In this document: positions 4,128 to 25,977 of the stretch, in pieces
Layout: the number at the start of each line of letters is the position of its first letter
Numbering within the stretch: the stretch's first letter is position 1
NCBI RefSeq assembly: GCF_002277025.1
Contig: NZ_NIWD01000002.1
Span: 466,241 to 530,240 of the forward strand
Length of the DNA: 64,000 nt
Direction of reading: 5' to 3'
DNA from: Sphingopyxis sp. GW247-27LB
Lineage (GTDB): Bacteria > Pseudomonadota > Alphaproteobacteria > Sphingomonadales > Sphingomonadaceae
Notes under the pieces: model-generated
The model's database searches: none
What the model was told of the DNA's origin: nothing
What the model saw: only the letters and a program-made list of their open reading frames with translations
Made by a program: the position numbers and the translations under genes

Positions 4128-5315
4128 ATGTCGATCACGCCGCTGATGCCCGTTTACCCCCGGTGCGCAGTGCGTCCGGTGCGCGGCGAAGGCGCCTATC
4201 TGATCGGCGAGCGAGGCGAGCGCTATCTGGACTTCGCGAGCGGCATCGCGGTCAACCTGCTCGGCCACGGGAATCCGCACCTGACGAAGGCGATCCAGGA
4301 TCAGGCGGCGACGCTGATGCACGTCTCGAACCTCTACGGCAGCCCGCAGGGCGAGGCTTTTGCCGCGCGGCTCGTCGAGAACACATTCGCCGATACGGTC
4401 TTCTTCACCAATTCGGGCGCCGAGGCGGTCGAATGCGCGATCAAGACCGCGCGCGCCTATCATTCGAGCGCGGGCAATGCCGAAAAGCATGTTCTGATCA
4501 CCTTCAACAACGCCTTCCATGGCCGTACGCTCGGGACGATCTCGGCGACCAACCAGGAAAAGCTGCGCAAGGGTTTCGACCCGCTGCTGCCCGGCTTCGC
4601 TTACGCGCCGTTCGACGACGTCAACGCCGCGCTCGACCTGGTCGACGACAACACCGCCGGCTTCCTCGTCGAACCGGTGCAGGGTGAGGGCGGCATCCGC
4701 CCCGCCTCGCAGCCCTTCCTGCAGGCGCTGCGCGACATCTGCGACAAGCGCGACCTGATGCTGATCTTCGACGAGGTGCAGTGCGGCGTCGCGCGCACGG
4801 GAACCCTCTACGCCCATGAGCAATATGGCATCGCCCCCGACATCATGGCGAGCGCCAAGGGCATCGGCGGCGGCTTTCCGATGGGCGCGTGCCTCGCGAC
4901 CGAAAAAGCGGCGCGCGGCATGGTGATCGGCACTCATGGATCCACCTATGGCGGCAATCCGCTGGCGATGGCGGCGGGGCAAGCGGTGTTCGACGTGATC
5001 CTCGAGGAAGGCTTCCTCGACCAGGTCAAGGCGACCGGCGAGCGGCTGCGCGGCGCGCTCGAACAGCTTATCCCCAATCATGACCATCTGTTCGACAGCG
5101 TGCGCGGCATGGGGCTGATGCTGGGGGTCAAGCTCAAGTCCGACAGCCGCGCCTTCGTCGCGCATCTACGCGACAATCACGGGCTGCTGACGGTGGCGGC
5201 GGGCGACAATGTCGTCCGCATCCTGCCGCCGCTCAACATCGGGCAGGGCCATATCGACGAGTGCATCGAAAAGCTGTCGGCGGGCGCGGCGAGCTATACG
5301 CCGCCGGAAGCCTGA
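4128..5315 (+). CDS. argD: acetylornithine aminotransferase
   Basis: PLP-dependent class III aminotransferase of 395 residues that converts N-acetylglutamate semialdehyde to N-acetylornithine in arginine synthesis; it may also act on succinyldiaminopimelate. Visible motifs are [13 protein letters not shown] (phosphate-binding loop), [14 protein letters not shown] (Asp binding the pyridine nitrogen) and [14 protein letters not shown] with the Schiff-base Lys. The ATG at 4128 was chosen because [12 protein letters not shown] is the family's normal N-terminus and a GGAAAGG ribosome-binding site sits 9 bases upstream; the frame is open 165 bases further upstream, but that part looks non-coding. 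The stop overlaps the argF start (TGATG). Confidence 0.95.
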
Positions 5316-6238
5316 TGCGGCATTTCCTGAACCTGTCGGACGCCGGCGGCGATGCCGTCGCGGCGATGCTGACCGACGCGATCGACCGCAAGGCGGCGCG
5401 CGCGGGCTGGCCCAAGGGCCGGCCCGACGCCGACAAGCCGCTCGCGGACCATGTGCTGGCGATGGTGTTCGAGAAGAATTCGACCCGCACCCGCGCCTCG
5501 TTCGACATGGCGATGCGCCAGCTGGGCGGCAGCGCGATGGTCCTCGACGCGGGGACCACCCAGCTCGGCCGCGGCGAGACGATCGCCGACACCGCGCGCG
5601 TCCTGTCGCGCTATGTCGACGCGATCATGATCCGCACCGACGATCATGCCAAGATCGAGGAACTGGCCGCGCATGCAAGCGTGCCGGTGATCAACGGTCT
5701 GACCGACCTGTCGCATCCGTGCCAGATCGTCGCCGACCTGCTGACGCTGGTCGAAAGCGGCAAGGCGTTGCCCGGGCTAGAGCTCGCGTGGCTCGGCGAC
5801 GGAAATAACGTACTCGCCTCGCTGATCGAGGCGGCGGGGCTGTTCGGCTTCAACGTCCGCGCGGGATGCCCGCAGGGCTATGACCCCGACCCGGCCTTCG
5901 TCGAGGCGGCGCGCGCGAAGGGTGCGCGGATCGACGTCGTGCGCGACGCGCGTGAGGCGGCGGCGGGCGCCGACGTCGTCGTCACCGATACCTGGGTGTC
6001 GATGGGGCAGGACCATGCCCACAACAAGCTCGCGGCGATGGCGCCGTTCCAGGTCGACGAGCGGCTGATGGGCGCCGCGAAGAGCGATGCGCTCTTCCTT
6101 CACTGCCTGCCCGCGCATCGCGGCGAGGAGGTCGTCGACGCGGTGATCGACGGATCGCAGTCGCGCGTCTGGGACGAAGCTGAAAACCGCGTCCATGCTC
6201 AAAAATCCGTCCTCCTCTGGGCGCTGGAAAAACTGTGA
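5315..6238 (+). CDS. argF: ornithine carbamoyltransferase
   Basis: Cytoplasmic enzyme of 307 residues that makes citrulline from ornithine and carbamoyl phosphate. Family motifs are present in order: [11 protein letters not shown] (the STRTR carbamoyl-phosphate loop), [13 protein letters not shown], and [11 protein letters not shown] with the ornithine-binding Cys. The start at 5315 overlaps the argD stop and begins MRHFLNLSD, the usual N-terminus. The stop overlaps the GTG of hslO (GTGA). argD-argF are therefore translationally coupled and likely one transcript with the chaperone gene that follows. Confidence 0.96.
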
Positions 6239-7149
6239 GCGACTCCGTCGAGACCTGGTTCGACCAGCCGCTGCTCTTTACCATTGCCGAACGTCATGTT
6301 CGCGGACGACTGGTGCGGCTGGGACCGGCGCTGCGCACGATCATCGCGGCGCACAGCTATCCGCCGGTCGCGGAAAAGCTGCTGGCCGAAGCGCTCGTCC
6401 TCACCGTTCTGCTCGGCTCGACGCTCAAGGACGAAAAGGGTCAGCTCACGCTGCAGGCGCAGACCGGCGGCGGGCCGGTCGAACTGCTCGTCTGCGACTA
6501 TCGCGGCGGCGAGCTTCGCGGCTATCTGAAGTTCGACGCCGAGCGGCTCGCCGAGATCGGCCCGGAACCGACGCTGTTCGCGCTGTTCGGCGAAGGGTTC
6601 CTCGCGATCACCTTCGACCAGGCGACAACGGGCGAGCGCTATCAGGGGATCGTCCCGCTCGAAGGCGCGTCGATCGGCGACGCCGCCGAACATTATTTCG
6701 AGCAGTCCGAGCAGATTTCGAGCCTGATCAAGCTCGCGGCGCGCCATGATGCCGAGGCGGGCTGTGTCGCCGGCGGGCTGCTGCTCCAGCATCTACCGGA
6801 GGGCGAGGTCGGCCGCGATCGGCTGCACGTCCGCCACGATCTTCCCGAATGGGAGCATGCGCGGACGATCGCCGAGACGTTGAAGCCCGACGAGCTGACC
6901 GACCCGGCGACCTCGCTCGAAACGCTCGCATGGCGCCTGTTCCACGAGGATGAGGTGCGCGTCGCGCCCGGCGTCACCATATCGCGCGGCTGCCGGTGCA
7001 GCACCGGCTATTTCGCCGGCGTGCTCGCCCAATTCCCCGAAAGCGAGCGCCGCGAAATGGCGGACGAACAGGGGCTGGTCCAGGTCGACTGCGCCTTTTG
7101 CTCGCGCGTCTTCCCCATTCCGCTCGGCGAGATCGGCGCGGAGGACTGA
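6235..7149 (+). CDS. hslO: Hsp33 redox-regulated chaperone
   Basis: 304-residue holdase activated by oxidative unfolding. The C-terminal zinc switch is complete: a CRC motif near residue 258 and a CAFC motif about 30 residues later, matching the family pattern CXC-X(27-32)-CXXC. The start is GTG at 6235, inside the argF stop region (4-base overlap), so translation probably depends on argF. The argD-argF-hslO order gives the arginine enzymes a chaperone neighbour but no direct functional link is evident. Confidence 0.94.
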
Positions 7150-7290
7150 GCGCCCCGGGACGGCGTTCCCCATCGGTGAAGCGGGGTCATCGAGGGCCGG
7201 GCGGTTGAAAGGCCGCGACCGGATCGCTATCTCCTTGCGAACGGGGTCGCACTCTTGCCCGGTTGTGGGTGGCCAGGTGGATAGGTGGAC

Positions 7291-7710
7291 ATGGCGATCT
7301 TCTCTCATTTCTTGCGATGGACTTTGGCGAGCGCGACTTTGGCGCTGGCCAGCACGGCGGCGGTTCCGGCGCAGGCGCCTTCGCTCGCGATGCTCGATCG
7401 GCTCGAAAAAGGCCGCTGGCAGCTCAGCGAGCGCGGCAAGTCCGACGTTCTGCAATCGATGTGCCTTGGCGACGCGCGGCGGATGATCCAGGTCTATCAT
7501 CCGCGCAGCGGCTGCTCGCGCTATGTGATCGAGGACAAGCCGAATTCGGTGACGGTGCATTACACCTGCCCCGGCGCCGGGCATGGCCGTACGACGATCC
7601 GTTCGGAAACCAACCGGCTGGTGCAGATCGACACGCAGGGGATCGCGAACGGCAAGCCTTTCTCGCAGGCGATCGAGGCACGCCGCGTCGCGGCGTGCAC
7701 GGGTGGCTGA
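7291..7710 (+). CDS. secreted DUF3617-like protein
   Basis: 139 residues (141 if the upstream GTG at 7285 is used). A signal peptide ends near VPAQA. The mature part has four Cys (SMCLGD, SGCSRY, YTCPG, AACTGG) and the pattern RLEKGRWQLSERG followed by a TIRSETNRLVQIDTQG strand, which resembles DUF3617 proteins of proteobacteria. No function is known for that family. It stands alone between hslO and queC. Confidence 0.6.
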   Translation: MAIFSHFLRWTLASATLALASTAAVPAQAPSLAMLDRLEKGRWQLSERGKSDVLQSMCLGDARRMIQVYHPRSGCSRYVIEDKPNSVTVHYTCPGAGHGRTTIRSETNRLVQIDTQGIANGKPFSQAIEARRVAACTGG

Positions 7711-7896
7711 TCCACTCCGGCGATAACCCGATATTAACCATCCCGCGCTATCGGGGATGAATGACGCACCGATGTGCGTCCTTCTCCCTACGGCTTCATG
7801 CCGAACTGGGCCGCCGGCACCGCCGCGCGGCCCATTTTCTTGGTGCGGCGCAGCGCGGGCCTTGCACGGCTGCATGGGCGGGCGTATCGGGCGCCG

Positions 7897-8589
7897 ATGC
7901 ACGACATGCACGGAAAAACGGTCATCGTCCTTCTCTCGGGCGGGCTCGACTCGATGGTCTGCGCCGGCCTTGCGCGCGAGGCGGGGGCGCGGATCGTCGC
8001 GCTGACGGTCGATTACAACCAGCGCCACCGCGTCGAACTCGAATCGGCCGCGCACATCGCCGACTATGTCGGCGCGGCCGAGCATATCGTGCTCCCGCTC
8101 GACCTTCGCCGCTTCGGCGGCTCGGCGCTGACCGCCGACATCGACGTCCCGAAGGACGGCCCGATCGGCGAAGCGAGCGACGTTCCGGTCACCTATGTGC
8201 CCGCGCGCAACCTCATCTTCCTGTCGCTCACGCTCGGCCTCGCCGAGGCGCGGCGCGCGCAGGACATCGTGATCGGGGTCAATGCGCTCGACTATTCGGG
8301 CTATCCCGATTGCCGCCCCGAATTCATCGCGAGCTTCGAGGCGCTCGCGCGCCTCGCGACGCGTGACGGCGACAAGGGCGTCGATTTTCATATTCACGCT
8401 CCGCTCCAGCACATGACCAAGGCCGATATCGCCGCCGAGGCGGCCCGGCTGGGCATGGACGCCGGGATGAGCTGGTCGTGCTACGACCCGACGCCCGAAG
8501 GGCTGCATTGCGGCCATTGCGATAGCTGCCGGCTGCGCAGCAAGGGTTTCGCCGACGCCGGGCTGACCGACCCGACGCGCTACGCCTGA
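7897..8589 (+). CDS. queC: 7-cyano-7-deazaguanine (preQ0) synthase
   Basis: 230-residue ATP-dependent enzyme that converts 7-carboxy-7-deazaguanine to preQ0 for queuosine in tRNA. It carries the PP-loop SGGLDSMVCAGLA near the N-terminus and the zinc-binding cysteine cluster C..HCGHCDSCRLR near the C-terminus. The ATG at 7897 (MHDMHGKTVIVLLSGG) was chosen because the PP-loop then falls at the normal distance from the start; the frame is open 123 bases upstream but encodes nothing family-like. queE follows after 3 bases. Confidence 0.95.
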   Translation: MHDMHGKTVIVLLSGGLDSMVCAGLAREAGARIVALTVDYNQRHRVELESAAHIADYVGAAEHIVLPLDLRRFGGSALTADIDVPKDGPIGEASDVPVTYVPARNLIFLSLTLGLAEARRAQDIVIGVNALDYSGYPDCRPEFIASFEALARLATRDGDKGVDFHIHAPLQHMTKADIAAEAARLGMDAGMSWSCYDPTPEGLHCGHCDSCRLRSKGFADAGLTDPTRYA

Positions 8590-8592
8590 ATC

Positions 8593-9225
8593 ATGGCCTA
8601 CGCTGTCAAAGAGATTTTCCTGACCCTGCAGGGGGAGGGCGCGCAGGCGGGCCGCCGCGCGGTCTTTTGCCGCTTTGCCGGCTGCAATTTGTGGACGGGG
8701 CGCGAGCAGGACCGCGCGAAGGCGGTCTGCCGCTTCTGCGACACCGATTTCGTCGGCACCGACGGGACGCTTGGCGGCAAATATGCCGATGCGGCAGCGC
8801 TCGCCGATCGCATTGCCGGGGCATGGGGCGCGGGGAGCGATGACCGTTACGTCGTGCTGACCGGCGGCGAGCCGATGCTCCAGGTCGACGACGCGCTGAT
8901 CGCGGCGCTCCACGAGCGCGGTTTCACCATCGCGATCGAGACCAACGGCACGCTCGCGGTGCCGCGCAGCATCGATTGGATCTGTGTCAGTCCCAAGGCG
9001 GGCAGCGAACTCGTTCAGACGAGCGGCGACGAATTGAAACTCGTCTGGCCGCAGCCGGGCAGCGATGTGGAGCGCTTCGCGACGCTCGATTTCGCGCATC
9101 ATCTGGTCCAGCCGCTCGACGACCCGAACGCGGCCGCCAATGTTCGCGCTTGCATCGATCTGGTGATGGCCGACCCGCGCTGGCGCCTGTCGCTCCAGAC
9201 GCACAAGAGCCTGGGGTTGCGTTAA
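8593..9225 (+). CDS. queE: 7-carboxy-7-deazaguanine synthase (radical SAM)
   Basis: 210-residue radical-SAM enzyme that contracts carboxytetrahydropterin to 7-carboxy-7-deazaguanine, the step before QueC. The iron-sulfur motif is the atypical CX14CX2C (Cys of CNLW, then CRFC), as in the Burkholderia multivorans type, rather than CX3CX2C. EIFLTLQGEG at the N-terminus and VLTGGEPMLQ (GGE, SAM binding) are clear. It forms a two-gene preQ0 operon with queC. It converges on a lipoprotein gene 3 bases away. Confidence 0.94.
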   Translation: MAYAVKEIFLTLQGEGAQAGRRAVFCRFAGCNLWTGREQDRAKAVCRFCDTDFVGTDGTLGGKYADAAALADRIAGAWGAGSDDRYVVLTGGEPMLQVDDALIAALHERGFTIAIETNGTLAVPRSIDWICVSPKAGSELVQTSGDELKLVWPQPGSDVERFATLDFAHHLVQPLDDPNAAANVRACIDLVMADPRWRLSLQTHKSLGLR

Positions 9226-9228
9226 GCT

Positions 9229-9576
9229 TTATTCGGTCGAAGCTTTGGGGGCGGGGGCTGTGGTCACCGCCTTCTTGGCTGCCGGGGCGGCGACGGCGTC
9301 GGGATTTTCCGTTTCGCCCGCATCATCCGTGGCAGCGTCGTCGGCCGTGTCCTCGTCCTTCTTCTCGGTCTTCTTGGCGCTGCCATCGTCGGGCACGCTG
9401 TTGTCGACCGCGGTGCCGTCGATGCTCGAATCGTCGAGGATGATCATCGAATCGCTGATCGTGCCGGGCTGAACCTCGACCGCGTCGAGCTTCGTCGTCG
9501 ACGAGCCGCCCGAATCGCCGCCTCCGCAGGCCGCGAGCGACAGGAGGAGGGCGGAGGACAGGAGAAGACGGGTCAT
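9229..9576 (-). CDS. small Asp/Ala-rich lipoprotein
   Basis: 115 residues. The N-terminal LLLSSALLLSLAAC is a clear lipobox with the lipidated Cys at about 17. The rest is low complexity: Gly/Ser, then Lys/Glu/Asp/Ala/Thr-rich sequence probably without a fixed fold. No family was recognised. The gene lies 9 bases downstream of lipB in the same direction and probably shares its transcript. Confidence 0.65.
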   Translation of the reverse strand: MTRLLLSSALLLSLAACGGGDSGGSSTTKLDAVEVQPGTISDSMIILDDSSIDGTAVDNSVPDDGSAKKTEKKDEDTADDAATDDAGETENPDAVAAPAAKKAVTTAPAPKASTE

Positions 9577-9585
9577 GCGCCCCTC

Positions 9586-10239
9586 CTAATCGCTCGGCGA
9601 AAGCTTGTCGAGAAAGGCGGGAAGGGCCGCCGCCAGCGCGGCATCGACCTCGGCGAAACCCGCCTGCTTCCCCAATGCGGCGAGGCTGGTCACAGGGAAT
9701 TCGGCGATCCCGCACGGCACGATCCCGCCGAAATGAGTGAGGTCGGGCGCGATGTTGAGCGAGAAGCCGTGCAGCGTCACCCAGCGCCGTACGCGCACGC
9801 CGATCGCGCCGATCTTCGCCTCGCGGCCCTGCGGGTCGTCGGTCCAGATGCCGATGCGCCCCTCGGCCCGCCGCGCCGCGACGCCGAGCGCGGCGAGGGC
9901 ATCGATCACCCAGCCTTCGAGCGCCGAGACATAGGCGCGGACGTCGCGGCCGCGATGGCTGAGGTCGAGCTGGACATAGCCGACGCGCTGGCCGGGGCCG
10001 TGATAGGTATAGCGCCCACCGCGACCGGCATCATAGACGGGAAAACGCGGGTCGAGCAGCTCGGCGGGATCGGCGCTCGTCCCCGCGGTGTAGAGCGGCG
10101 GATGCTCGAGCAGCCAGATGCGCTCGCCGACCCCGCCCGCGTGGATGGCCGCGGCGCGCGCCTCCATGTCGGCCAGCGCGGCGGGATAGTCGGTGAGACC
10201 GGGCGAAACGCTCCATTCGGTTGACGGCAGGCGGGTCAT
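9586..10239 (-). CDS. lipB: lipoyl(octanoyl) transferase
   Basis: 217-residue cytoplasmic enzyme that moves octanoate from acyl carrier protein to lipoyl domains such as that of the E2 subunit encoded at 41.4 kb. Motifs: [30 protein letters not shown] (catalytic Lys) and IVPCGI (catalytic Cys). The ATG at 10239 (MTRLPSTEW) fits the family N-terminus better than the open frame 36 bases upstream. Confidence 0.95.
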
Positions 10240-18360: not shown

Positions 18361-18453
18361 GGAGACGTGGGTGAGTGGCTGAAACCAACGGTTTGCTAAA
18401 CCGTCGTACTGGTAAATCCGGTACCGAGGGTTCGAATCCCTCCGTCTCCGCCA
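18361..18453 (+). tRNA. tRNA-Ser (GCT)
   Basis: Acceptor GGAGACG pairs with CGTCTCC; discriminator G and an encoded CCA end the gene at 18453. The anticodon loop TTGCTAA gives anticodon GCT, and the long variable arm (TACTGGTAAATCCGGTA) marks a class II tRNA. The TTCGAAT T-loop is present. Confidence 0.96.
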
Positions 18454-18526
18454 CCTAGCTATTTCCATGAAATTTGCGGCCGCCCGTACGAGCGGCCTGA
18501 TGGCGCCCATGAGCGCGATGCAGTTG

Positions 18527-19192
18527 CTACAGGTCGATGGTGATCCGGATGCGGTCGGGCGATACGCCCGCGACGGCGGCGATCTGTGCCTTTGCGCGCT
18601 CGGTGGCGCTTCGCAGCGTTTCGCGCGATTCGATGCCGAGCAGATCGGCGCTCTGGACGCCGAGCAGCTTGGCCAGCGCTTCGATGCGTCCAGCCTTGGG
18701 CCGCGCCTTGTCCTGCTCCCAGGCCGAGATCGACGGTTCGCTGACGCCGAGTTCGGTCGCGACCTGTGACTGGGTAAGCCCCTGGGCCAGACGCAGGCGC
18801 TGCAAGCGCAGGCCGAAGCTTTCGAGCGTGGAGGCGGGGGCGTCGGGCTCGATCGGCGCGTCAGGGGTCGCGACACTCCGCAGGCTGGCGGCGCTGAGGG
18901 TGGCGGTCGAGACTGGCGTGTCGAATCGGCAGCCATAAAGCGGCCCGCTCGCCCAGATGATGCTGACCGACGTGGCGCCCGCATGCGGCAGTGCGATTTC
19001 GATTCGATCGCCGGGCTTCATGTCGGCGTCGGCCTCGATCAGAAGGCCGGTCGCCGAGATGTTGTGGACGAGCGCCTTGATTCCCGAACCGCTGGCCTTC
19101 GCGCCCTGCAGCAAAAGCCGCAGCCGCCGCCGCTCGCTCGAACGTGGATGCCCCGGTTGCGCCGTCTCTTCGATAAAAGCTGTCACTGCCAT
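18527..19192 (-). CDS. PilZ-XRE fusion transcription regulator
   Basis: 221 residues with two domains. Residues about 15-100 form a PilZ domain with both cyclic-di-GMP contact motifs: RSSER (RxxxR, R17/R21) and NISATG (N/DxSxxG, 44-49). A Pro/Ala-rich linker (105-122) leads to an XRE-type helix-turn-helix at about 125-180 (LRLAQGLTQSQVATELGV, then SEPSISAWEQDKARPKAGR). A short C-terminal helix and strand end in RIRITIDL. This is the architecture expected of a c-di-GMP-responsive DNA-binding protein. It is divergent from the pilus operon across 416 bp, so control of the pilus is a reasonable inference but not shown. Confidence 0.85.
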   Translation of the reverse strand: MAVTAFIEETAQPGHPRSSERRRLRLLLQGAKASGSGIKALVHNISATGLLIEADADMKPGDRIEIALPHAGATSVSIIWASGPLYGCRFDTPVSTATLSAASLRSVATPDAPIEPDAPASTLESFGLRLQRLRLAQGLTQSQVATELGVSEPSISAWEQDKARPKAGRIEALAKLLGVQSADLLGIESRETLRSATERAKAQIAAVAGVSPDRIRITIDL

Positions 19193-19608
19193 TCGCCGGA
19201 CAGTCGCGATCGGGGGTTAACGCTTGGTTAGTGCGTGCCCATTCCGTGCCGGCGATCGGACGGAACGAGCCTGTCCTGAGGTGCGCTGGGCCCTTTTGCC
19301 CGAGAGTCGTTCTCGTAAATAAATAGCTAAGGATCGGATGCGGACATCGAGTGGCGCGAAATCCCAGGGCTCACGACAGGGGCAATTGTCGCTTTTCCCG
19401 GCAAAAATATATATAACTAATTGATTTATATACATAATAATAAAGACATTTGGAACTGTGCCAGACCGGAACAGGGCTGCGGCAGAGAGGGCGTGTGCCC
19501 ACAATCTGATGGCAGTGGGATTGCCAATATAAATAAACTGTTTACCTTCGCTTTCGGACTACGGCGATTCTTCGTCCGCGGGGGCGGACACATGGGGGAT
19601 CGCCTGCC
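19193..19608. promoter_or_regulatory. AT-rich divergent intergenic region between pilZ-xre and the pilus operon
   Basis: 416 bases with no convincing gene. The part from about 19310 to 19450 and again 19520-19555 is far richer in A+T than the rest of the window (runs such as AAAAATATATATAACTAA and CCAATATAAATAAACTG). This is typical of a strong or silencer-bound promoter region. It carries the CtrA-like box described separately. No clear sigma-70 pair with correct spacing could be fixed by eye for the pilus operon. Confidence 0.6.
19216..19231 (-). promoter_or_regulatory. candidate CtrA box upstream of the PilZ-XRE gene
   Basis: On the minus strand the site reads CTAA, seven bases, then TTAAC, one mismatch from the alphaproteobacterial CtrA consensus TTAA-N7-TTAAC. 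It ends 24 bases before the ATG of the PilZ-XRE gene. Function inferred from the motif only. Confidence 0.4.
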
Positions 19609-20214
19609 GTGGCTCTTTCGGGCCGGCGGCGATTTGGGTGGGGATTTTCTTTGGCTGAGGCCTTTTGCCGGTTTCGGGCAGCGTGTTGCGTTGCCTTTGC
19701 GGGGTTGCTGGTTTCGACCACGGCCGCCGCTGCGGATGCGCCCGACAAGGCGGCCGCCAACGGGGGCGTGTCGCTCGACATCGTCCTGAACGGGCATATC
19801 ACGCCGAAATGCACCGTGGGCGGCGGCGACACCATCGATCTCGGTCAGTTGAATGTCGACAAGAATGTTTCGGCGCGCTTCGACGTCGCCTGCAACGTGC
19901 CCTTCGAAATGGTGTTCCGATCGTCGGAGGGCGGCATCGCCCATGTCAGCAAGCCGCAGGGCGAGGGCCCTTATGCGGGCATCGTGCCCTATCGCCTAGG
20001 CGTGAGGGTTCCGGGGCTGACGCCGGAGCCGGTGCAACTGCAGGCCGATTTCACGAGCGGACAGATGGTTGGCGGCGCGACGCTGAACAGCGGCGATGCG
20101 ATCGCCAAGGGCGGCGGAGAAATCACGCTGCAAACGGAAATGACGGCGGGCCGGGATCTGCTGGCCGGCGATTATGCGGATTCGATCACGATCGTGATCA
20201 ATCCGCGCGTCTAG
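19609..20214 (+). CDS. pilus subunit-like secreted protein (first of locus)
   Basis: 201 residues. A signal peptide (AACCVAFAGLLVSTTAAAA) is followed by an Ig-like fimbrial subunit pattern. A Cys in GHITPKCTVGGG pairs probably with one in FDVACNVPFEM, a strand segment follows the second Cys, and the tail DYADSITIVINPRV has the alternating pattern of a final beta-strand. The start is GTG at 19609 with GGGGGA about ten bases upstream. It resembles spore-coat-U/Csu-type subunits. Probably a minor or adaptor subunit. Confidence 0.65.
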   Translation: MALSGRRRFGWGFSLAEAFCRFRAACCVAFAGLLVSTTAAAADAPDKAAANGGVSLDIVLNGHITPKCTVGGGDTIDLGQLNVDKNVSARFDVACNVPFEMVFRSSEGGIAHVSKPQGEGPYAGIVPYRLGVRVPGLTPEPVQLQADFTSGQMVGGATLNSGDAIAKGGGEITLQTEMTAGRDLLAGDYADSITIVINPRV

Positions 20215-20285
20215 GAATGCTGACCGCGAAGGTCAGCAGGGTCGTAGTGAGTAGTAAGTAACTGAGTAGAAAAGGGAGTTAAGTA

Positions 20286-20936
20286 ATGAAAATTTCTCAT
20301 CTTATGATCGCGGGTGCGGTTGCCGCGCTGAGCAGCACCGCCGTTTCGGCGCAGACCACGCCGGCGAATGCCGTCTACGAGCCGGGCGGGAACGCCAACA
20401 TCGGAAACGCGTCTTCGTCGGTAGACGCGGATTTCACCATCACCGGCAATGTCAGCCCGGCGTGCGTCCTCGGCGCGGGCGGCGACCTGCGCGATCTCGA
20501 CATGGGCAGCATCGGCATCTACGCCGACGCGACCAGCTCGGTGGAAAACGTGTTCACCTCGGTCGGTGAATCGGATGCCCACACCCGCACCAACCTCGCG
20601 GGTTGCAACACCAAGAACCGGATGACGATCACCAAGACCAACGGTTCCGAGGGCCTCGTCAACGCGGGCGCGGCGGACGGCGGTTATGACGGCAATGTCT
20701 TCCAGAAGAACATTCCGTACACGGTCATGGCTCGCTACACCGCCGGTGCGGTCGGCACCACCACCGCTTCGCTCGCCAACCAGATCACGGTCCTTCCGAA
20801 CGACGATTCGGAATCGCGCGAGCATGGGGCCTGGAAGTCGGCCCCTGCGTTCAAGGTCACCCTGACCGATCCGACGAAGGCGCTGGTTGCCGGCACCTAC
20901 ACGGACACGGTGACGGTGGTGCTCGAAGCCATCTAA
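20286..20936 (+). CDS. probable major pilus subunit
   Basis: 216 residues with a signal peptide cleaved after VSAQ (23). Two Cys (C60 in NVSPACVLG and C107 in LAGCNTKN) are placed as in chaperone-usher pilins, and the C-terminus ends in the strand YTDTVTVVLEAI. It shares the G.I.P.C..G pattern with the preceding subunit. A stable hairpin lies 11 bases downstream, as often found after the most abundant subunit of pilus operons, which supports the major-subunit call. Confidence 0.72.
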   Translation: MKISHLMIAGAVAALSSTAVSAQTTPANAVYEPGGNANIGNASSSVDADFTITGNVSPACVLGAGGDLRDLDMGSIGIYADATSSVENVFTSVGESDAHTRTNLAGCNTKNRMTITKTNGSEGLVNAGAADGGYDGNVFQKNIPYTVMARYTAGAVGTTTASLANQITVLPNDDSESREHGAWKSAPAFKVTLTDPTKALVAGTYTDTVTVVLEAI

Positions 20937-20947
20937 ACGGCAAGACT

Positions 20948-20984
20948 GAGTATCGCGGGGAACGGGTTGTTCCCCGCGATACTC
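20948..20984 (+). promoter_or_regulatory. 16-bp perfect hairpin between pilin and chaperone genes
   Basis: GAGTATCGCGGGGAAC, loop GGGTT, then the exact reverse complement. No T-run follows, so it is more likely an mRNA-stabilising or partial attenuator structure than a full terminator. It probably sets the ratio of pilin to chaperone and usher message. Confidence 0.65.
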
Positions 20985-21050
20985 GCATATCGGGGGCAGG
21001 GGGAAGCGCTACGGCGCGAACGCCATCGACCGCTCCCGGGCGAGGGACGA

Positions 21051-21902
21051 ATGGCGAAATTTCGGTTTGCTGGCCTCTTGGGGAAACTGCGCCTCGGCGC
21101 GGTATTGTTGTTTCTGGGCATCCTTGCCTCGACTTCGGCGCTGGCGATGCGCGTTTCGCCGATGGTGTCCGAATTGACGACATCGGGCGCGGGCGCGGTC
21201 GCGCGCATCGAGGTCGGCAATGTCGGCAGCGCGTCGATGCCGTTCGAGACCAGGATCACGCGCATCGATTTCGACGAGAACGGAAAGCTTGTCGAAACGC
21301 CCGCCGATGAGGACTTCATCGTCTTCCCGCCGCAAGGTCTGGTTCCGGTTTCGGGCCGTCAGGTCATCCGTGCGCAATGGATCGGCCGCCCCGACATCCC
21401 GACCTCGCAGGCTTATTATCTGTGGGTCCGCCAGTTGCCGGTCGAAACCAACCCGCAGAAGATTCAGGGGACCGATGCAGCGGTCTCCATCGATATTCTC
21501 TATACCATGAAGGCGCTGATCGTCGTCGCGCCGCCGGGGGCGAAACCCGATGTGGAAGTGGTGTCGCTGACGCCGGAGATGATCGTGCCTCCCGCGCTCG
21601 AGGGCGAGGCCGCGACCCAGGGCGAGGGGGCCGCCCCGCCGGGCGCCGAGCCCCGCCCGGGGCTGAAGGTCGTGGTGACGAACAAGGGCAATCGCTATGC
21701 GCTGATGAGCGGCGCGAAATGGGTTGTCTCCGGCACCGATACCAGCGGCAAGCCGTTCGAGCGGACCTATAGCAATGAGGAAGTCGCGACGCTGCTTGGC
21801 GTCGGCTATCTCGCTCCTGGCGGCGGCAAGCGCATTTTCGAGATTCCGACCGGCGTGGCGCTCGATCCCGCCAAGCCGCTGACGATGCGATTCATTCGGT
21901 GA
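21051..21902 (+). CDS. periplasmic pilus chaperone (PapD-like)
   Basis: 283 residues. A signal peptide ends near LASTSALA and the first Ig domain starts MRVSPMVSELTTSG. The chaperone pattern PPQGLVPVSGRQVIRAQW follows, with the subunit-binding Arg around residue 103, then AYYLWVRQLPVE. Between the expected strands of the second domain lies an Ala/Glu/Pro/Gly-rich insert (about residues 178-203) that standard chaperones lack. The ATG at 21051 has GGGCGAGGGA upstream. The stop overlaps the usher GTG by 4 bases. Confidence 0.85.
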   Translation: MAKFRFAGLLGKLRLGAVLLFLGILASTSALAMRVSPMVSELTTSGAGAVARIEVGNVGSASMPFETRITRIDFDENGKLVETPADEDFIVFPPQGLVPVSGRQVIRAQWIGRPDIPTSQAYYLWVRQLPVETNPQKIQGTDAAVSIDILYTMKALIVVAPPGAKPDVEVVSLTPEMIVPPALEGEAATQGEGAAPPGAEPRPGLKVVVTNKGNRYALMSGAKWVVSGTDTSGKPFERTYSNEEVATLLGVGYLAPGGGKRIFEIPTGVALDPAKPLTMRFIR

Positions 21903-24445
21903 GACGCTGGCTTCGTGTCGCCGGCAGCGCGGTCGCCATCGGCGCCGGCCTTTGGGCGGCCACCAGCGCGTGGGCGTTTGAAGACCCCGGGGCCGGGACC
22001 GGTGCGACGAACATCGCCCCCGCGCCGGACACCCCGTCGCCGGCCGCGCCGCGGGTCGACATCAATCCCTATGATCGCGATGTGGACATCACCGCGCCGT
22101 TGCAGTTCAACCGGCGGATATTGGGCGAACTGCCGGTCCTGCTGACCCGCGACGACCGTTTCATGGTGGGCTCCGAAGGGTTTCTGGCGCTGATCGGGCC
22201 TTTGCTCACCCCCGAAGCGAATGCCGAGCTGACCGCGCTGCTCGACGGCAAGCAGCGCTTCCTGCCCGAGGAAATCGCACCGAGCGGAATCCGGCTCGAC
22301 TATGATCCGCAACAGCTCGCGGTGCTCGTGCTCAAGATCGCGCCCGAAAAACGGTCGGTCGAGATCCTCTATCAGCGCGGGGAACCCGAAGCGCCGGGCG
22401 CCGCGCCCGAGCCGTTCAGCGCCTATCTGAACGTCAACACGATCGTGTCGCGATTGTCCGGCGCGGGCGGCGTCCGCACGCCCGAACTCTATCTGAACGG
22501 CGCCATTCGATACAATGGCCTGGTCTTCGAGGCCGACGCCCAGGCGCGCAGCGATTTTGCGACCGGCGATTACAAGTTCGAGCGGCGCTACGCGCGACTG
22601 GTTTACGATCAGCCCGAACAATATCGGCGCTGGTTCCTCGGCGACCTCGATCCCGAAACGCGCGGGCGCCAGGGCTTCATCAACATGGGCGGCATCGGCG
22701 TGGTGCGGCAACGGCGCCGTTTCGACGCGTTCCGCAGTAATATTCTGTCCGGCGGGCGGCAACTGGTGCTGCAGGAGCAATCGACGGTTCGCGTCATTCG
22801 CAACGGCATCTACCAGCGCGAATTCATCCTCGACCCTGGTCAATATGATGTTTCGAACCTGCCGCTCGACACCGGCAGCAACAACATCCAGATCGAGATC
22901 GAGGGCATTTCGGGCAACCGGCGAACGGTCGACTACCAGGCCTATCTCGACACTATCGATATCGAGCCGGGCGATTATGAATATGGGGCCTATATCGGCT
23001 TCCTTGACGAGGGTGGTTTCGGCAATCCAGATTATTCCGGAAAAAAGCCTGTGTTTACCGGGTTTTGGCGAAAGGCATTCCTGAATCGTCCGGCGATCGG
23101 CATCGGCACGCAAATTTCCGAAGATGTGCAGAACGTGACCGCGCAGACGCAGTTCATTCTGCCGAACAGCGGCCTGCTTCGCATCGACGTCGGGGCCAGT
23201 CACGGTAAAACCGGCCAGGGCTTCGCGACCACATTCGGCTATGAACAGATCGTCGGCGGCACGACGGGTTACGACACCGTGACCGTCGTAGCCGACTATA
23301 CGTCTTCGCACTACGCGACCGTGGGCGGCATCGTCGGGGTCAACCCCATCTCGTGGAACCTCAACGCCGCCTATACCAAGCGTTTCTCGACGAAATTGTT
23401 CGCGACCACCAACGTCTCATACCGAAAGAGCCGGAGCCCGCTGCTCCGCGACGCCTACAGCATCGGTTCGACCGCCAATTATCGTTTCGACCGGCAGTGG
23501 TCGCTGCAGTTCGGCGTCGAATATAGCCGGACGAGCTTTTCGAGCAGTTTCGGCCGCACAGGCGGGTTCGGGGCGAGCATCGGTCTGGTCTGGCAGCCGG
23601 GCTATAACCGCCGTGCCGAGGCGCGTTACAATTCGGTCCGCAATGCCGCGAGCGCACGCTATCAGCAGACGGCCGAGAACCGTGCCGGCTCCTTCGGCTA
23701 TGCGGTAGCCTCCAACTACGACGATGGCGCGACCTCGGTCAGTGGTCAGCTCGACTATGTCGGCAACCGGTTCGACGCAAATCTGTCGCACACGGCGTTC
23801 GGGGATGGTTTCGACAGCATCGGCGACAGCCAGCTCACCACGCTGCGCATCGGCAGTTCGATTTCCTATGTCGGCGGGCGTGTCGCCATCGGTCGCACGA
23901 TCGACGACAGCTTCGCCCTCGTCTATCCCCACGATACGCTGAAGGGGCGTCCCGTGATCGTCGGCGACCGGCTGGAGGATGGCGCCTATACGAGCAAGAG
24001 CGGCGCTTTGGGGCCGGCGGTGCAGAATTCGCTCACCGCCTTCTTCAACCAGTCGATCCGCTATGATGTCGTCGATCCGCCGCTCGGATATGACGTGGGC
24101 GAAGGCGTCAAGCGCGTGCGACCGGCCTACAAGAGCGGCTATGTCATCGAAGTCGGCAGCGCCGCCTTCGTCAGCGCCGTCGGCACATTGAAAGGGGTCG
24201 ATGGCCAGCCGCTCAAGCTGGTCAGCGGCATATTGCGCCGCGCGGACGCGCCCGAGGCCGAAGGCGAACCCTTCTTCACCAACACGGCCGGCAGGTTTGC
24301 CGCGGCCAAGCTGGAACCGGGCGTGAAATATTCGGTGCAATTCTATTCGGGCGGCTTCGAAGGATTCGGTTTCCGGGTGCCCGAGGATAATGAAGGACTT
24401 TTGGACCTCGGCGTGATCGAGGTCAGGCGCAAGGAAGGCCAATGA
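21899..24445 (+). CDS. outer-membrane pilus usher
   Basis: 848 residues starting at GTG. After a signal peptide, an Ala/Pro linker leads to an N-terminal domain with YDRDVDITAPLQFNRRILGE. The barrel part is Tyr/Arg/Gly-rich with motifs such as FEADAQARSDFATGDYKFERRY and DVSNLPLDTGSNNIQIEIEG, typical of PapC/FimD-like ushers of the alternative or archaic classes. The C-terminal part has the expected small Ig-like fold (AGRFAAAKLEPGVKYSVQFY). It exports and polymerises the subunits encoded beside it. The class cannot be fixed by eye. Confidence 0.85.
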   Translation: MRRWLRVAGSAVAIGAGLWAATSAWAFEDPGAGTGATNIAPAPDTPSPAAPRVDINPYDRDVDITAPLQFNRRILGELPVLLTRDDRFMVGSEGFLALIGPLLTPEANAELTALLDGKQRFLPEEIAPSGIRLDYDPQQLAVLVLKIAPEKRSVEILYQRGEPEAPGAAPEPFSAYLNVNTIVSRLSGAGGVRTPELYLNGAIRYNGLVFEADAQARSDFATGDYKFERRYARLVYDQPEQYRRWFLGDLDPETRGRQGFINMGGIGVVRQRRRFDAFRSNILSGGRQLVLQEQSTVRVIRNGIYQREFILDPGQYDVSNLPLDTGSNNIQIEIEGISGNRRTVDYQAYLDTIDIEPGDYEYGAYIGFLDEGGFGNPDYSGKKPVFTGFWRKAFLNRPAIGIGTQISEDVQNVTAQTQFILPNSGLLRIDVGASHGKTGQGFATTFGYEQIVGGTTGYDTVTVVADYTSSHYATVGGIVGVNPISWNLNAAYTKRFSTKLFATTNVSYRKSRSPLLRDAYSIGSTANYRFDRQWSLQFGVEYSRTSFSSSFGRTGGFGASIGLVWQPGYNRRAEARYNSVRNAASARYQQTAENRAGSFGYAVASNYDDGATSVSGQLDYVGNRFDANLSHTAFGDGFDSIGDSQLTTLRIGSSISYVGGRVAIGRTIDDSFALVYPHDTLKGRPVIVGDRLEDGAYTSKSGALGPAVQNSLTAFFNQSIRYDVVDPPLGYDVGEGVKRVRPAYKSGYVIEVGSAAFVSAVGTLKGVDGQPLKLVSGILRRADAPEAEGEPFFTNTAGRFAAAKLEPGVKYSVQFYSGGFEGFGFRVPEDNEGLLDLGVIEVRRKEGQ

Positions 24446-24446
24446 T

Positions 24447-25358
24447 ATGATTGTTCGGGGCACCTCTTGGGCGCGTTGGCCGTATCTTTGCGCGGCGGCT
24501 TTCGGACTCGCCGCCGCCCCTTCGGCGGCCCAGGCCGCGTGCGTCCTCTCGATCGAGCCGGCGCAGGATGAACTCCTCATCCGTCACAATGTGCTCGAAC
24601 CGGGCGCGGCATATGGAACGATCGAGCTTAACATCGTCAACCGCGGCGACAGCGAGTGCATCGGGCAACTCGGTGCGTCGCTGCGCGGCGAACAATATGG
24701 GTTCCGATCCGGCAGCAGCGCGCCATCGATCCTTTATCAGCTGGTCGATGAAAAGAGCCGCAGCGACATCACGCCGCGTACCGGGCGGAATCTCGATCGT
24801 GCGGGCGGACGAATGCTGCACCTCGCGCCGGGCGAACGGAGCCTCGAGGTCATCTCGGTCACCGCGCTTCCCGACGAGGCAACCTCACAGGGCCGCTATG
24901 TTCAATCGCTCGACCTGACGGTGACCGATGCGAGCGGCATGTCGCTGGCGGCGGCGCCTCTGACGCTAGGCCTCGACATCGTCTCCGCCGCGCTGATCGG
25001 AGTGAAGGGCGAGGTTTCGCGCGTGCGCGGCGGCCTTTCGGTCGACCTCGGCGAGCTCGAGCCGGGCGAGCGAAAGCTGCCGGTGACGCTCTATGTGGTG
25101 TCGACCGGCGCCTATCGCGTCTCGGTGTCGTCACTGAACCTGGGTCGGCTCAAGCATGTGGGTTCGCAATGGTATGTCAGCTATCGCATGTGGCTCGGCG
25201 GCCAGAGCCTCGACCTGTCGGCGCTCGACGGGTTCGATGTCACGTCGGATCGCTGGCATTTCGACGATTATCCGGTGCGGATCGAAATCGGCGAAACCGA
25301 AGGGAAGCGCGCGGGCAATTACAGCGACCGCGTGATGCTGACCGTCGCCGCGCTATAG
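24447..25358 (+). CDS. pilus tip or adhesin-like subunit
   Basis: 303 residues, signal peptide ending PSAAQAA. The N-terminal half starts CVLSIEPAQDELL and has a second Cys (SECIGQL); the second half has LYVVSTGAYRVSVSSLNLGRL and WYVSYRMWLGGQSLDLS, a pattern seen in spore-coat-U-type pilins. Its size and position as the last gene after the usher match the two-domain tip proteins of archaic and alternative chaperone-usher operons. It starts one base after the usher stop and converges with the next gene with no gap. Confidence 0.65.
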   Translation: MIVRGTSWARWPYLCAAAFGLAAAPSAAQAACVLSIEPAQDELLIRHNVLEPGAAYGTIELNIVNRGDSECIGQLGASLRGEQYGFRSGSSAPSILYQLVDEKSRSDITPRTGRNLDRAGGRMLHLAPGERSLEVISVTALPDEATSQGRYVQSLDLTVTDASGMSLAAAPLTLGLDIVSAALIGVKGEVSRVRGGLSVDLGELEPGERKLPVTLYVVSTGAYRVSVSSLNLGRLKHVGSQWYVSYRMWLGGQSLDLSALDGFDVTSDRWHFDDYPVRIEIGETEGKRAGNYSDRVMLTVAAL

Positions 25359-25778
25359 TCAGATGGGCTGAATCGTCAGCGACAGGGTCAGCGGCGCTTC
25401 GAGGCGCACTTCGTCGAACCGATAGACGACCTGCTGGATTCGCGGACCATGGGCGCGGTGCACTTCCTGCTCGCCGGCCGATGAAAGGTCGAACATCCGA
25501 TCGCCATAGATCAGGCGCGCGTGCTCGGACGGATCGAGCGGGCGGTACATCGCCGACACGACATAGCCCGACGCGCTGTTGCACGCTTCGGTCACGCGTC
25601 CGTCCGCCGGACTCATCGCGTCCGCCTCCACGGCATGGTCGACCCAGCAGGCCATCGGCACGGTGGCCGAAATCTGGAAGGTCCCGGCCGCCTGCGACCC
25701 CGCCATTGCCGGTGCCGAAACGAGCGCTGCGGCCGCGCAACCGATGGCGGCCATGGTTCGGATCGCTGTCGTTGGCAT
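25359..25778 (-). CDS. small secreted pilin-like protein, convergent with the pilus operon
   Basis: 139 residues with a signal peptide ending APAMA and two Cys (PMACWVDH, TEACNSAS). The segment SGYVVSAMYRPLDPSEHARLIYG and a last strand LEAPLTLSLTIQPI resemble the pilin-type subunits of the adjacent locus. It is transcribed on its own toward the operon, stop to stop. It may be an extra subunit expressed under different control. ATG 25778 chosen because the signal peptide follows it. Confidence 0.55.
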   Translation of the reverse strand: MPTTAIRTMAAIGCAAAALVSAPAMAGSQAAGTFQISATVPMACWVDHAVEADAMSPADGRVTEACNSASGYVVSAMYRPLDPSEHARLIYGDRMFDLSSAGEQEVHRAHGPRIQQVVYRFDEVRLEAPLTLSLTIQPI

Positions 25779-25977
25779 AGTGAAAGCCCCTACATCTACG
25801 GCTGCCCTCTTAAGGCCCAACCGTTAAGGGGCTGATGTGGAGGTATGGTTAACGTGTCGGACTATTGACAGGCGGGCCGCGTCGCGGCGGCCGGTGGGGC
25901 GGCCGCGGCGATGATGCTCCGCGCAAGCGCTCCTTCCCATGCGATTTCGTTCGGTAGGGGGGCGATATATTATTGTA

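Follow-up and report, generated by a model that had tools for sequence, protein, structure and literature searches.

A PilZ–XRE fusion protein beside a chaperone-usher pilus operon in Sphingopyxis: a candidate c-di-GMP-responsive regulator and its wider family

The fusion gene and the pilus operon

The window, a stretch of 64,000 nucleotides from Sphingopyxis sp. GW247-27LB, harbors a putative regulator gene that faces a pilus operon. The regulator is encoded on the minus strand (18527 to 19192) and comprises 221 residues, with a PilZ domain (residues 17–98) that is followed by an XRE-type helix-turn-helix (HTH; residues ~126–183) and a conserved tail extending to residue 221. Both domains exceed their Pfam cut-offs: PF07238 (PilZ) reaches 33.1 bits against a threshold of 22.5, and the HTH is recognized by the two profiles HTH_31 (126–182, 59.1 bits) and HTH_3 (130–183, 55.2 bits). 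A previous reading made from the letters alone, in the following called the sequence-only reading, had described a single protein joining PilZ and XRE in which both c-di-GMP motifs are intact, and this description is correct in either respect; RxxxR is present as R17-SSE-R21 and [DN]xSxxG as N44-IS-AT-G49. The structure model of the fusion is modest (pLDDT 66), its residues 1–25 score below 50, and the placement of R17 is unsupported by it. Fold searches with this model retrieved PilZ domains with known c-di-GMP-bound structures, Alg44 and MapZ among them, and, for the HTH half, domains of the P22 c2, DdrO and SinR type. Six PilZ matches are present in the window genome, and only one place matches the fusion at E ≤ 1e-10.

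Homologues of a chaperone, an usher and pilins lie together in one operon on the plus strand (19609–25358). It starts with a pilin-like subunit (19609–20214; GTG start at 19609, with an uncertain start codon and called starts that vary among homologues), followed by a second pilin-like subunit (20286–20936) with a weak match to SCPU (spore coat U), a Csu-like periplasmic chaperone (20967–21902, true start perhaps at 21051), an outer-membrane usher of 848 residues that is identified by homologue profile matches (21899–24445) and a tip-like subunit (24447–25358), which recurs in pilus loci and whose role is suggested by its position. A small protein without Pfam match, recurrent as well, is encoded on the minus strand at the end of the operon (25359–25820). 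Similar small proteins close many pilus operons in either orientation.

The pilus proteins of the window itself have Pfam matches below the cut-off or none. The SCPU match of the second pilin (E 8e-4) is below the cut-off, that of the first pilin reaches E 0.095, and the window usher alone finds no Pfam match. Among the aligned homologues, 11 of 13 ushers match PF00577 (Usher) and 9 of 11 chaperones match PapD_N at E ≤ 0.01, and the best solved match of the chaperone profile is CsuC (E 8e-7). Judged from these similarities, the operon is real though diverged, and archaic, Csu-like chaperone-usher system is the most fitting name for it. The gap between the fusion and the GTG at 19609 measures 416 bp and has a GC content of 53.8% compared with 66.5% in the window. 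The notion of a fusion facing a complete pilus operon across 416 AT-rich bases is accordingly accurate for the operon and the distance, while the gap is AT-rich in relative terms only.

Linkage within the genus and insertion at a tRNA-Ser gene

The distribution of the fusion was investigated in 80 genomes of the genus, the window genome included, by whole-genome searches, because a contig search with a single protein had returned only seven loci. The fusion protein has a match at E ≤ 1e-20 in 72 of the 80 genomes and the usher in 50. Among the matches listed we counted 124 places with both domains, after leaving out 26 rows that span only one of the two (a few of the kept rows are partial at one end), and at least one counted place is present in 68 of the 80 genomes. 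The fusion is hence no rarity in Sphingopyxis.

A fusion from the matches listed is located within 12 kb of 36 of the 61 usher places, compared with 0.71 expected by chance, and a neighbourhood by chance is thus ruled out. Ushers with at least 45% identity to that of the window have a divergent fusion directly upstream in 22 of 23 cases, the exception being G102 on a contig of 6,776 bases, whereas this applies to only 4 of the 38 ushers below 45%; the genomes share ancestry and such counts are not independent events. Seen from the fusion, 48 of the 124 places (again among the matches listed) have an usher nearby, and for 76 none was detected in the vicinity.

Two subfamilies of the fusion are found upstream of pili. 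The clade of the window has a local support of 0.52. The second subfamily is nested within a clade of 19 (support 0.98), five members of which have no nearby usher, and accompanies most of the ushers with 47–48% identity, which represent the second pilus lineage. The pairing of clades and lineages is not strict, as documented by window-clade fusions upstream of more distant ushers in G028, G029, G020 and G034. Many second-lineage loci harbor a further fusion downstream, which is of the kind occupying that chromosomal site in other genomes. Another Sphingopyxis subfamily (10 members, support 0.99) resides near PEP-CTERM, L,D-transpeptidase (YkuD) or acyltransferase genes; its loci include L097 and L098 and also L085, L090 and L094 to L096. 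Short proteins that match the XRE half and the tail only are distributed across the genus (e.g., G028:C3:300402) and represent a possible source of the DNA-binding part.

In the window, fusion and pilus together constitute an insert of 7.5 kb (18458–25968) directly after a tRNA-Ser(GCT) gene (18361–18453, plus strand). A comparison of six relatives at this site showed that the insert is missing in G010 and G097, which hold about 95 bases there and then resume like the window; in the other four, the match to the window stops at the tRNA. In many Sphingopyxis relatives, the fusion is located, with or without a pilus, between queA and a PAS-GGDEF-EAL gene, from which it diverges. Five genomes (L049 to L053) harbor the fusion at the queA site beside the GGDEF-EAL gene and have no usher match anywhere. 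The queA site of the window genome is closed, with 13 bases between the matching stretches compared with about 8.4 kb in L121 and about 7.5 kb in L117. In the case of G074 (L119), nothing at the queA site matches the stretch with the GGDEF-EAL gene. A PAS-GGDEF-EAL protein with a C-terminal PilZ match is encoded directly after queA in the window genome (L161, C14:333330-335516), and the GGDEF-EAL protein of this genome is 84% identical to that of a relative.

The identity to relatives amounts to 80–89% in the large block left of the insert and to 76–86% in the block from eipA to the tRNA, and the pilus region reaches only 71–72% in the comparison with L119 and L121. One example is G074, which has the closest EipA (89%) and yet an usher (75%) that is no closer than those of G097 and G010 (75%). 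The reciprocal empty sites and the stronger divergence of the pilus relative to its flanks fit a transfer, and fusion and pilus therefore appear to travel as a unit. Since 76 of the 124 fusion places lack a detected usher nearby and the five queA-site genomes have no usher match, a larger fusion family would have the pilus as one of its targets.

The fusion family in other genera

Searched with a profile of 31 members, the 396 genomes of the order yielded 119 with the fusion, which belong to 17 of 84 genera and exclusively to the family of the window. A confinement to the genus Sphingopyxis, which the result for other families (0 of 24 genomes) had left in place, was overturned by this profile, as it finds 16 further genera of the same family at E ≤ 1e-25. 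Outside the genus, 103 genomes matched, and 98 of them from 14 genera were used (G318 is partial); G247, G262, G367, G369 and G426, from two genera, were left out. The fusion is located immediately before a GGDEF-type gene in at least 68 of these 98 genomes and in the same direction in at least 67, with a median distance of 282 bp between the match ends; five candidates per genome were scored among the matches listed, and the numbers may be undercounts. The adjacency holds for every counted genome in ten of the 14 genera (39/39, 10/10, 8/8, 3/3, 2/2, 2/2 and four with 1/1), and there is none among the matches listed in the other four (0/23, 0/5, 0/1, 0/1). This organization is found in loci L172, L174, L175, L177, L179, L180, L182 to L186 and L188, with an opposite orientation in L184. 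All four GGDEF-type neighbours that were checked by Pfam contain a GGDEF domain, three of them together with PAS. The genes of the fetched loci originate from a simple codon-usage caller that missed some; in 8 of 100 loci it overlooked the fusion. A GGDEF (cyclase) gene is the commonest partner of the fusion across the other genera sampled. In G213, a representative of another genus, the fusion adjoins an usher (L176, about 4784–9690), which suggests an independent or transferred pairing. No description of a PilZ–XRE regulator was found in the titles and abstracts listed by searches of the open-access literature, and the family is apparently uncharacterised.

The family alignment contains 120 sequences from the 124 fusion places counted among the matches listed. 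R17 is conserved as arginine in 75 of them and R21 in 111 (nine gaps), [DN]xSxxG is kept in 111, and 74 retain all five motif residues. The position of R17 is occupied by glycine in 19 sequences, and some divergent members of the family are without the motif. This loss could be read as a sign of a degenerate PilZ domain in an XRE regulator that works independently of c-di-GMP. The window protein keeps all five residues, however, as do the 74 aligned sequences, and a GGDEF gene is the neighbour in at least 68 of the 98 genomes from other genera, which makes a degenerate domain very improbable. The frequent GGDEF neighbourhood in most of the other genera sampled provides a stronger reason to believe that the fusion senses c-di-GMP.

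The same neighbourhood raises the question of whether the fusion acts mainly in a local way on genes of c-di-GMP turnover, with feedback on the adjacent cyclase, and whether the vicinity of the pilus simply follows from insertion at the same place. GGDEF adjacency indeed covers more genera than pilus adjacency, and the five genomes with the fusion beside GGDEF-EAL at the queA site lack any usher match. In the window genome, nevertheless, the fusion does not lie at the GGDEF-EAL site but next to the pilus alone, and a distinct fusion subfamily goes with most pilus loci of the second lineage. We consider a mainly local role improbable and prefer a function of the fusion in the control of the pilus.

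Upstream sites, proposed mechanism and known systems

A CtrA-like box (CTAAC-N6-TTAAC; 19216–19231, minus strand) is located 39 bp before the start codon of the fusion. Its presence near the fusion's own start was part of the sequence-only reading and proved to be real and widespread, with NTAA-N7-TTAAC occurring no more than 150 bp from the start in 57 of 119 fusions compared with 22 of 918 control genes. The box is present in all ten members of the window's upstream clade and in 45 of the 75 fusions without a nearby usher, and in only 2 of 19 downstream fusions. Among the upstream fusions it is found in 10 of 25, all from the window's clade, and in none of the 15 others, which mostly belong to the second pilus lineage. 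In other genera, CTAAC-N6-TTAAC precedes 7 of 17 fusions at a distance of 55–81 bp, compared with 0 of 136 control genes. The two halves of the box form a direct repeat with a spacing of one helical turn (11-bp period) and not a palindrome, a layout that we take to be the CtrA pattern; CTAA-N7-TTAAC presumably differs by one mismatch from a consensus of the TTAA-N7-TTAA type. Alternatively, TAAC-N6-TTAAC may be bound by the regulator itself as an operator, or be part of a promoter. Its position about 40–80 bp before the start, where a promoter could be, and its absence from some fusion subfamilies are compatible with this explanation, which is nonetheless rather unlikely in view of the direct repeat, corresponding to the CtrA pattern, and the rarity of the box before control genes (22/918, 0/136). 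A CtrA site is the preferred interpretation, and according to PMC9756655 CtrA is highly conserved in this class.

The candidate operator is a dyad between the fusion and the first pilin, CTGTGCCAGACCGGAACAG (19456–19474), 135–153 bp upstream of the annotated pilin start. It follows the palindrome CTGT-N11-ACAG, whose recurrence was seen on aligning the intergenic regions between fusion and pilin. The exact dyad is not enriched overall in the 1.795 Mb of the window and 100 loci, with 18 copies compared with 19 expected by composition. Nine of the 18 copies are located between the fusion and the start of the pilus operon, two upstream of pilins without an upstream fusion (L128, L130), and two between the fusion and a PEP-CTERM gene (L097 near 8568, L098 near 8506), with near matches in other loci of the PEP-CTERM/acyltransferase subfamily. 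Of the remaining five, two lie within genes, two in the interval from the usher to the gene called next, and one past the 3' end of a fusion (L147). A position weight matrix (PWM) from five sites of the window's clade scored at least 12 in 16 of 109 held-out fusion upstream regions, including some between fusion and GGDEF-EAL gene, compared with 1.2 in shuffles (sd 1.0, maximum 4) and 17 of 657 upstream regions of control genes; none of 200 column-permuted PWMs reached the value. The dyad had first been spotted by eye in alignments that included some second-lineage loci, for which the held-out test is therefore not blind. Neither the PEP-CTERM loci nor the pilin-side sites of G015 and G019 had contributed to the discovery of the dyad.

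Many second-lineage pilus loci (e.g., G005, G098, G013) have only a weak dyad or none, and the dyad was not found upstream of fusions in other genera (10 loci scored, best score 6.9). Among the 25 pilus operons that have no fusion nearby, 20 were scored and contributed four upstream sites of at least 12 compared with 4.4 expected, which adds little. For the longer form CTGTNCC-N5-GGNACAG, the dyad of the window is the only exact copy in the 4.79-Mb genome. Copies with one mismatch elsewhere in this genome were rejected as evidence (12 sites including the exact one, 14 for the reversed control). One of them (L190 2074; C16:134473) is located upstream of a gene that we take from its sequence to be dksA-like and of a stand-alone PilZ gene.

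We consider it probable that the fusion is a c-di-GMP-responsive one-component transcription factor that controls the pilus and probably receives an input from CtrA. The PilZ domain would bind c-di-GMP, as suggested by the intact motifs and the neighbouring cyclase genes in other genera, and this binding would alter how an XRE homodimer attaches to the palindromic operator CTGT-N11-ACAG, for which recurrence and enrichment of the site are documented. Most likely, c-di-GMP would thereby turn on the archaic chaperone-usher pilus operon, in the manner of MrkH. CtrA would probably set the transcription of the fusion gene via the putative site about 40–80 bp before its start, and this control would tie pilus expression to the cell-cycle circuit. 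The coupling of c-di-GMP and the cell cycle to pilus expression, which the sequence-only reading had proposed, is thus supported in part: the linkage, the apparent co-mobility, the shared candidate operator, the recurrent box and the GGDEF neighbours speak for it, and the 76 of 124 places (among the matches listed) that are not close to any detected usher and the missing box in the second lineage speak against it.

With respect to the sign of control, the analogy leads us to lean towards activation, against repression. The same protein with the opposite sign would repress the pilus operon, and c-di-GMP would relieve or strengthen the repression in the manner of SinR-like XRE regulators and phage repressors. 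The matches of the HTH in fold and sequence (P22 c2, DdrO, SinR) are repressors, and the divergent layout of regulator and target, which is typical of repressors too, counts for this explanation. We still regard repression as somewhat unlikely, given that the dyad 135–153 bp before the annotated pilin start may suit an activator at least as well, and that MrkH, a PilZ regulator of chaperone-usher fimbriae, is described in PMC3161979 as a c-di-GMP-dependent activator.

Control of the pilus by the fusion would be one facet of a more general scenario, which we advance with about as much doubt as conviction. The fusions may constitute an undescribed class of c-di-GMP one-component regulators, composed of PilZ and a canonical XRE HTH and spread through one family, whose ancestral position would be ahead of a GGDEF cyclase gene of its own, in many cases together with a CtrA-like box. 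Within Sphingopyxis, the class would have multiplied into subfamilies, which would travel with different surface structures (the pilus lineages and the PEP-CTERM/acyltransferase loci) and control them via a shared palindromic operator. To our knowledge, the established c-di-GMP transcription factors recognize the messenger at sites that are varied and often improvised, and in MrkH the DNA-binding domain joined to PilZ is an unusual one. If the scenario is true, PilZ plus a textbook HTH with a predicted operator, adjoined by a cyclase gene in many genera, would represent a simple modular switch from c-di-GMP to DNA. In sphingomonads, it would link the second messenger, and perhaps the cell cycle as well, to surface attachment, and the fusion would be a candidate part for c-di-GMP biosensors.

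Among the known systems, the XRE/Cro-C1 repressors (P22 c2, SinR, DdrO) are similar in sequence and fold of the HTH, but the matches span only this half of the fusion. The locus resembles the archaic Csu pili in the chaperone, whose profile matches CsuC best, and one pilin has a weak SCPU match below the cut-off, whereas its usher and pilins are strongly diverged; we know of no PilZ–XRE regulator of Csu pili. VpsT, FleQ, BrlR, LtmA and other c-di-GMP-binding HTH factors share the direct link from messenger to DNA but sense c-di-GMP via REC, GyrI-like, TetR-type or other parts and not via PilZ, as stated in the accessible sections of a 2025 review (PMC12564702), in which no word beginning with XRE was found. 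By analogy, the closest functional precedent would be MrkH of Klebsiella pneumoniae. According to PMC3161979, it needs c-di-GMP for strong binding to the mrkA regulatory region, activates type 3 fimbriae from a position just upstream of the promoter of the first pilin and is fed by the cyclase YfiN and the phosphodiesterase MrkJ. In both cases a PilZ protein and a chaperone-usher fimbrial operon are involved, with control established for MrkH and the same kinds of parts recognized here as neighbours from the genes alone. The architectures differ, since PMC3161979 and PMC12564702 describe for MrkH a C-terminal PilZ and a novel N-terminal DNA-binding domain without HTH, which is not the arrangement of the window fusion with its N-terminal PilZ and XRE HTH. 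Further differences are the archaic, Csu-like type of the pilus and the CtrA-like box. The fusion would thus resemble MrkH in function, but with a canonical HTH.
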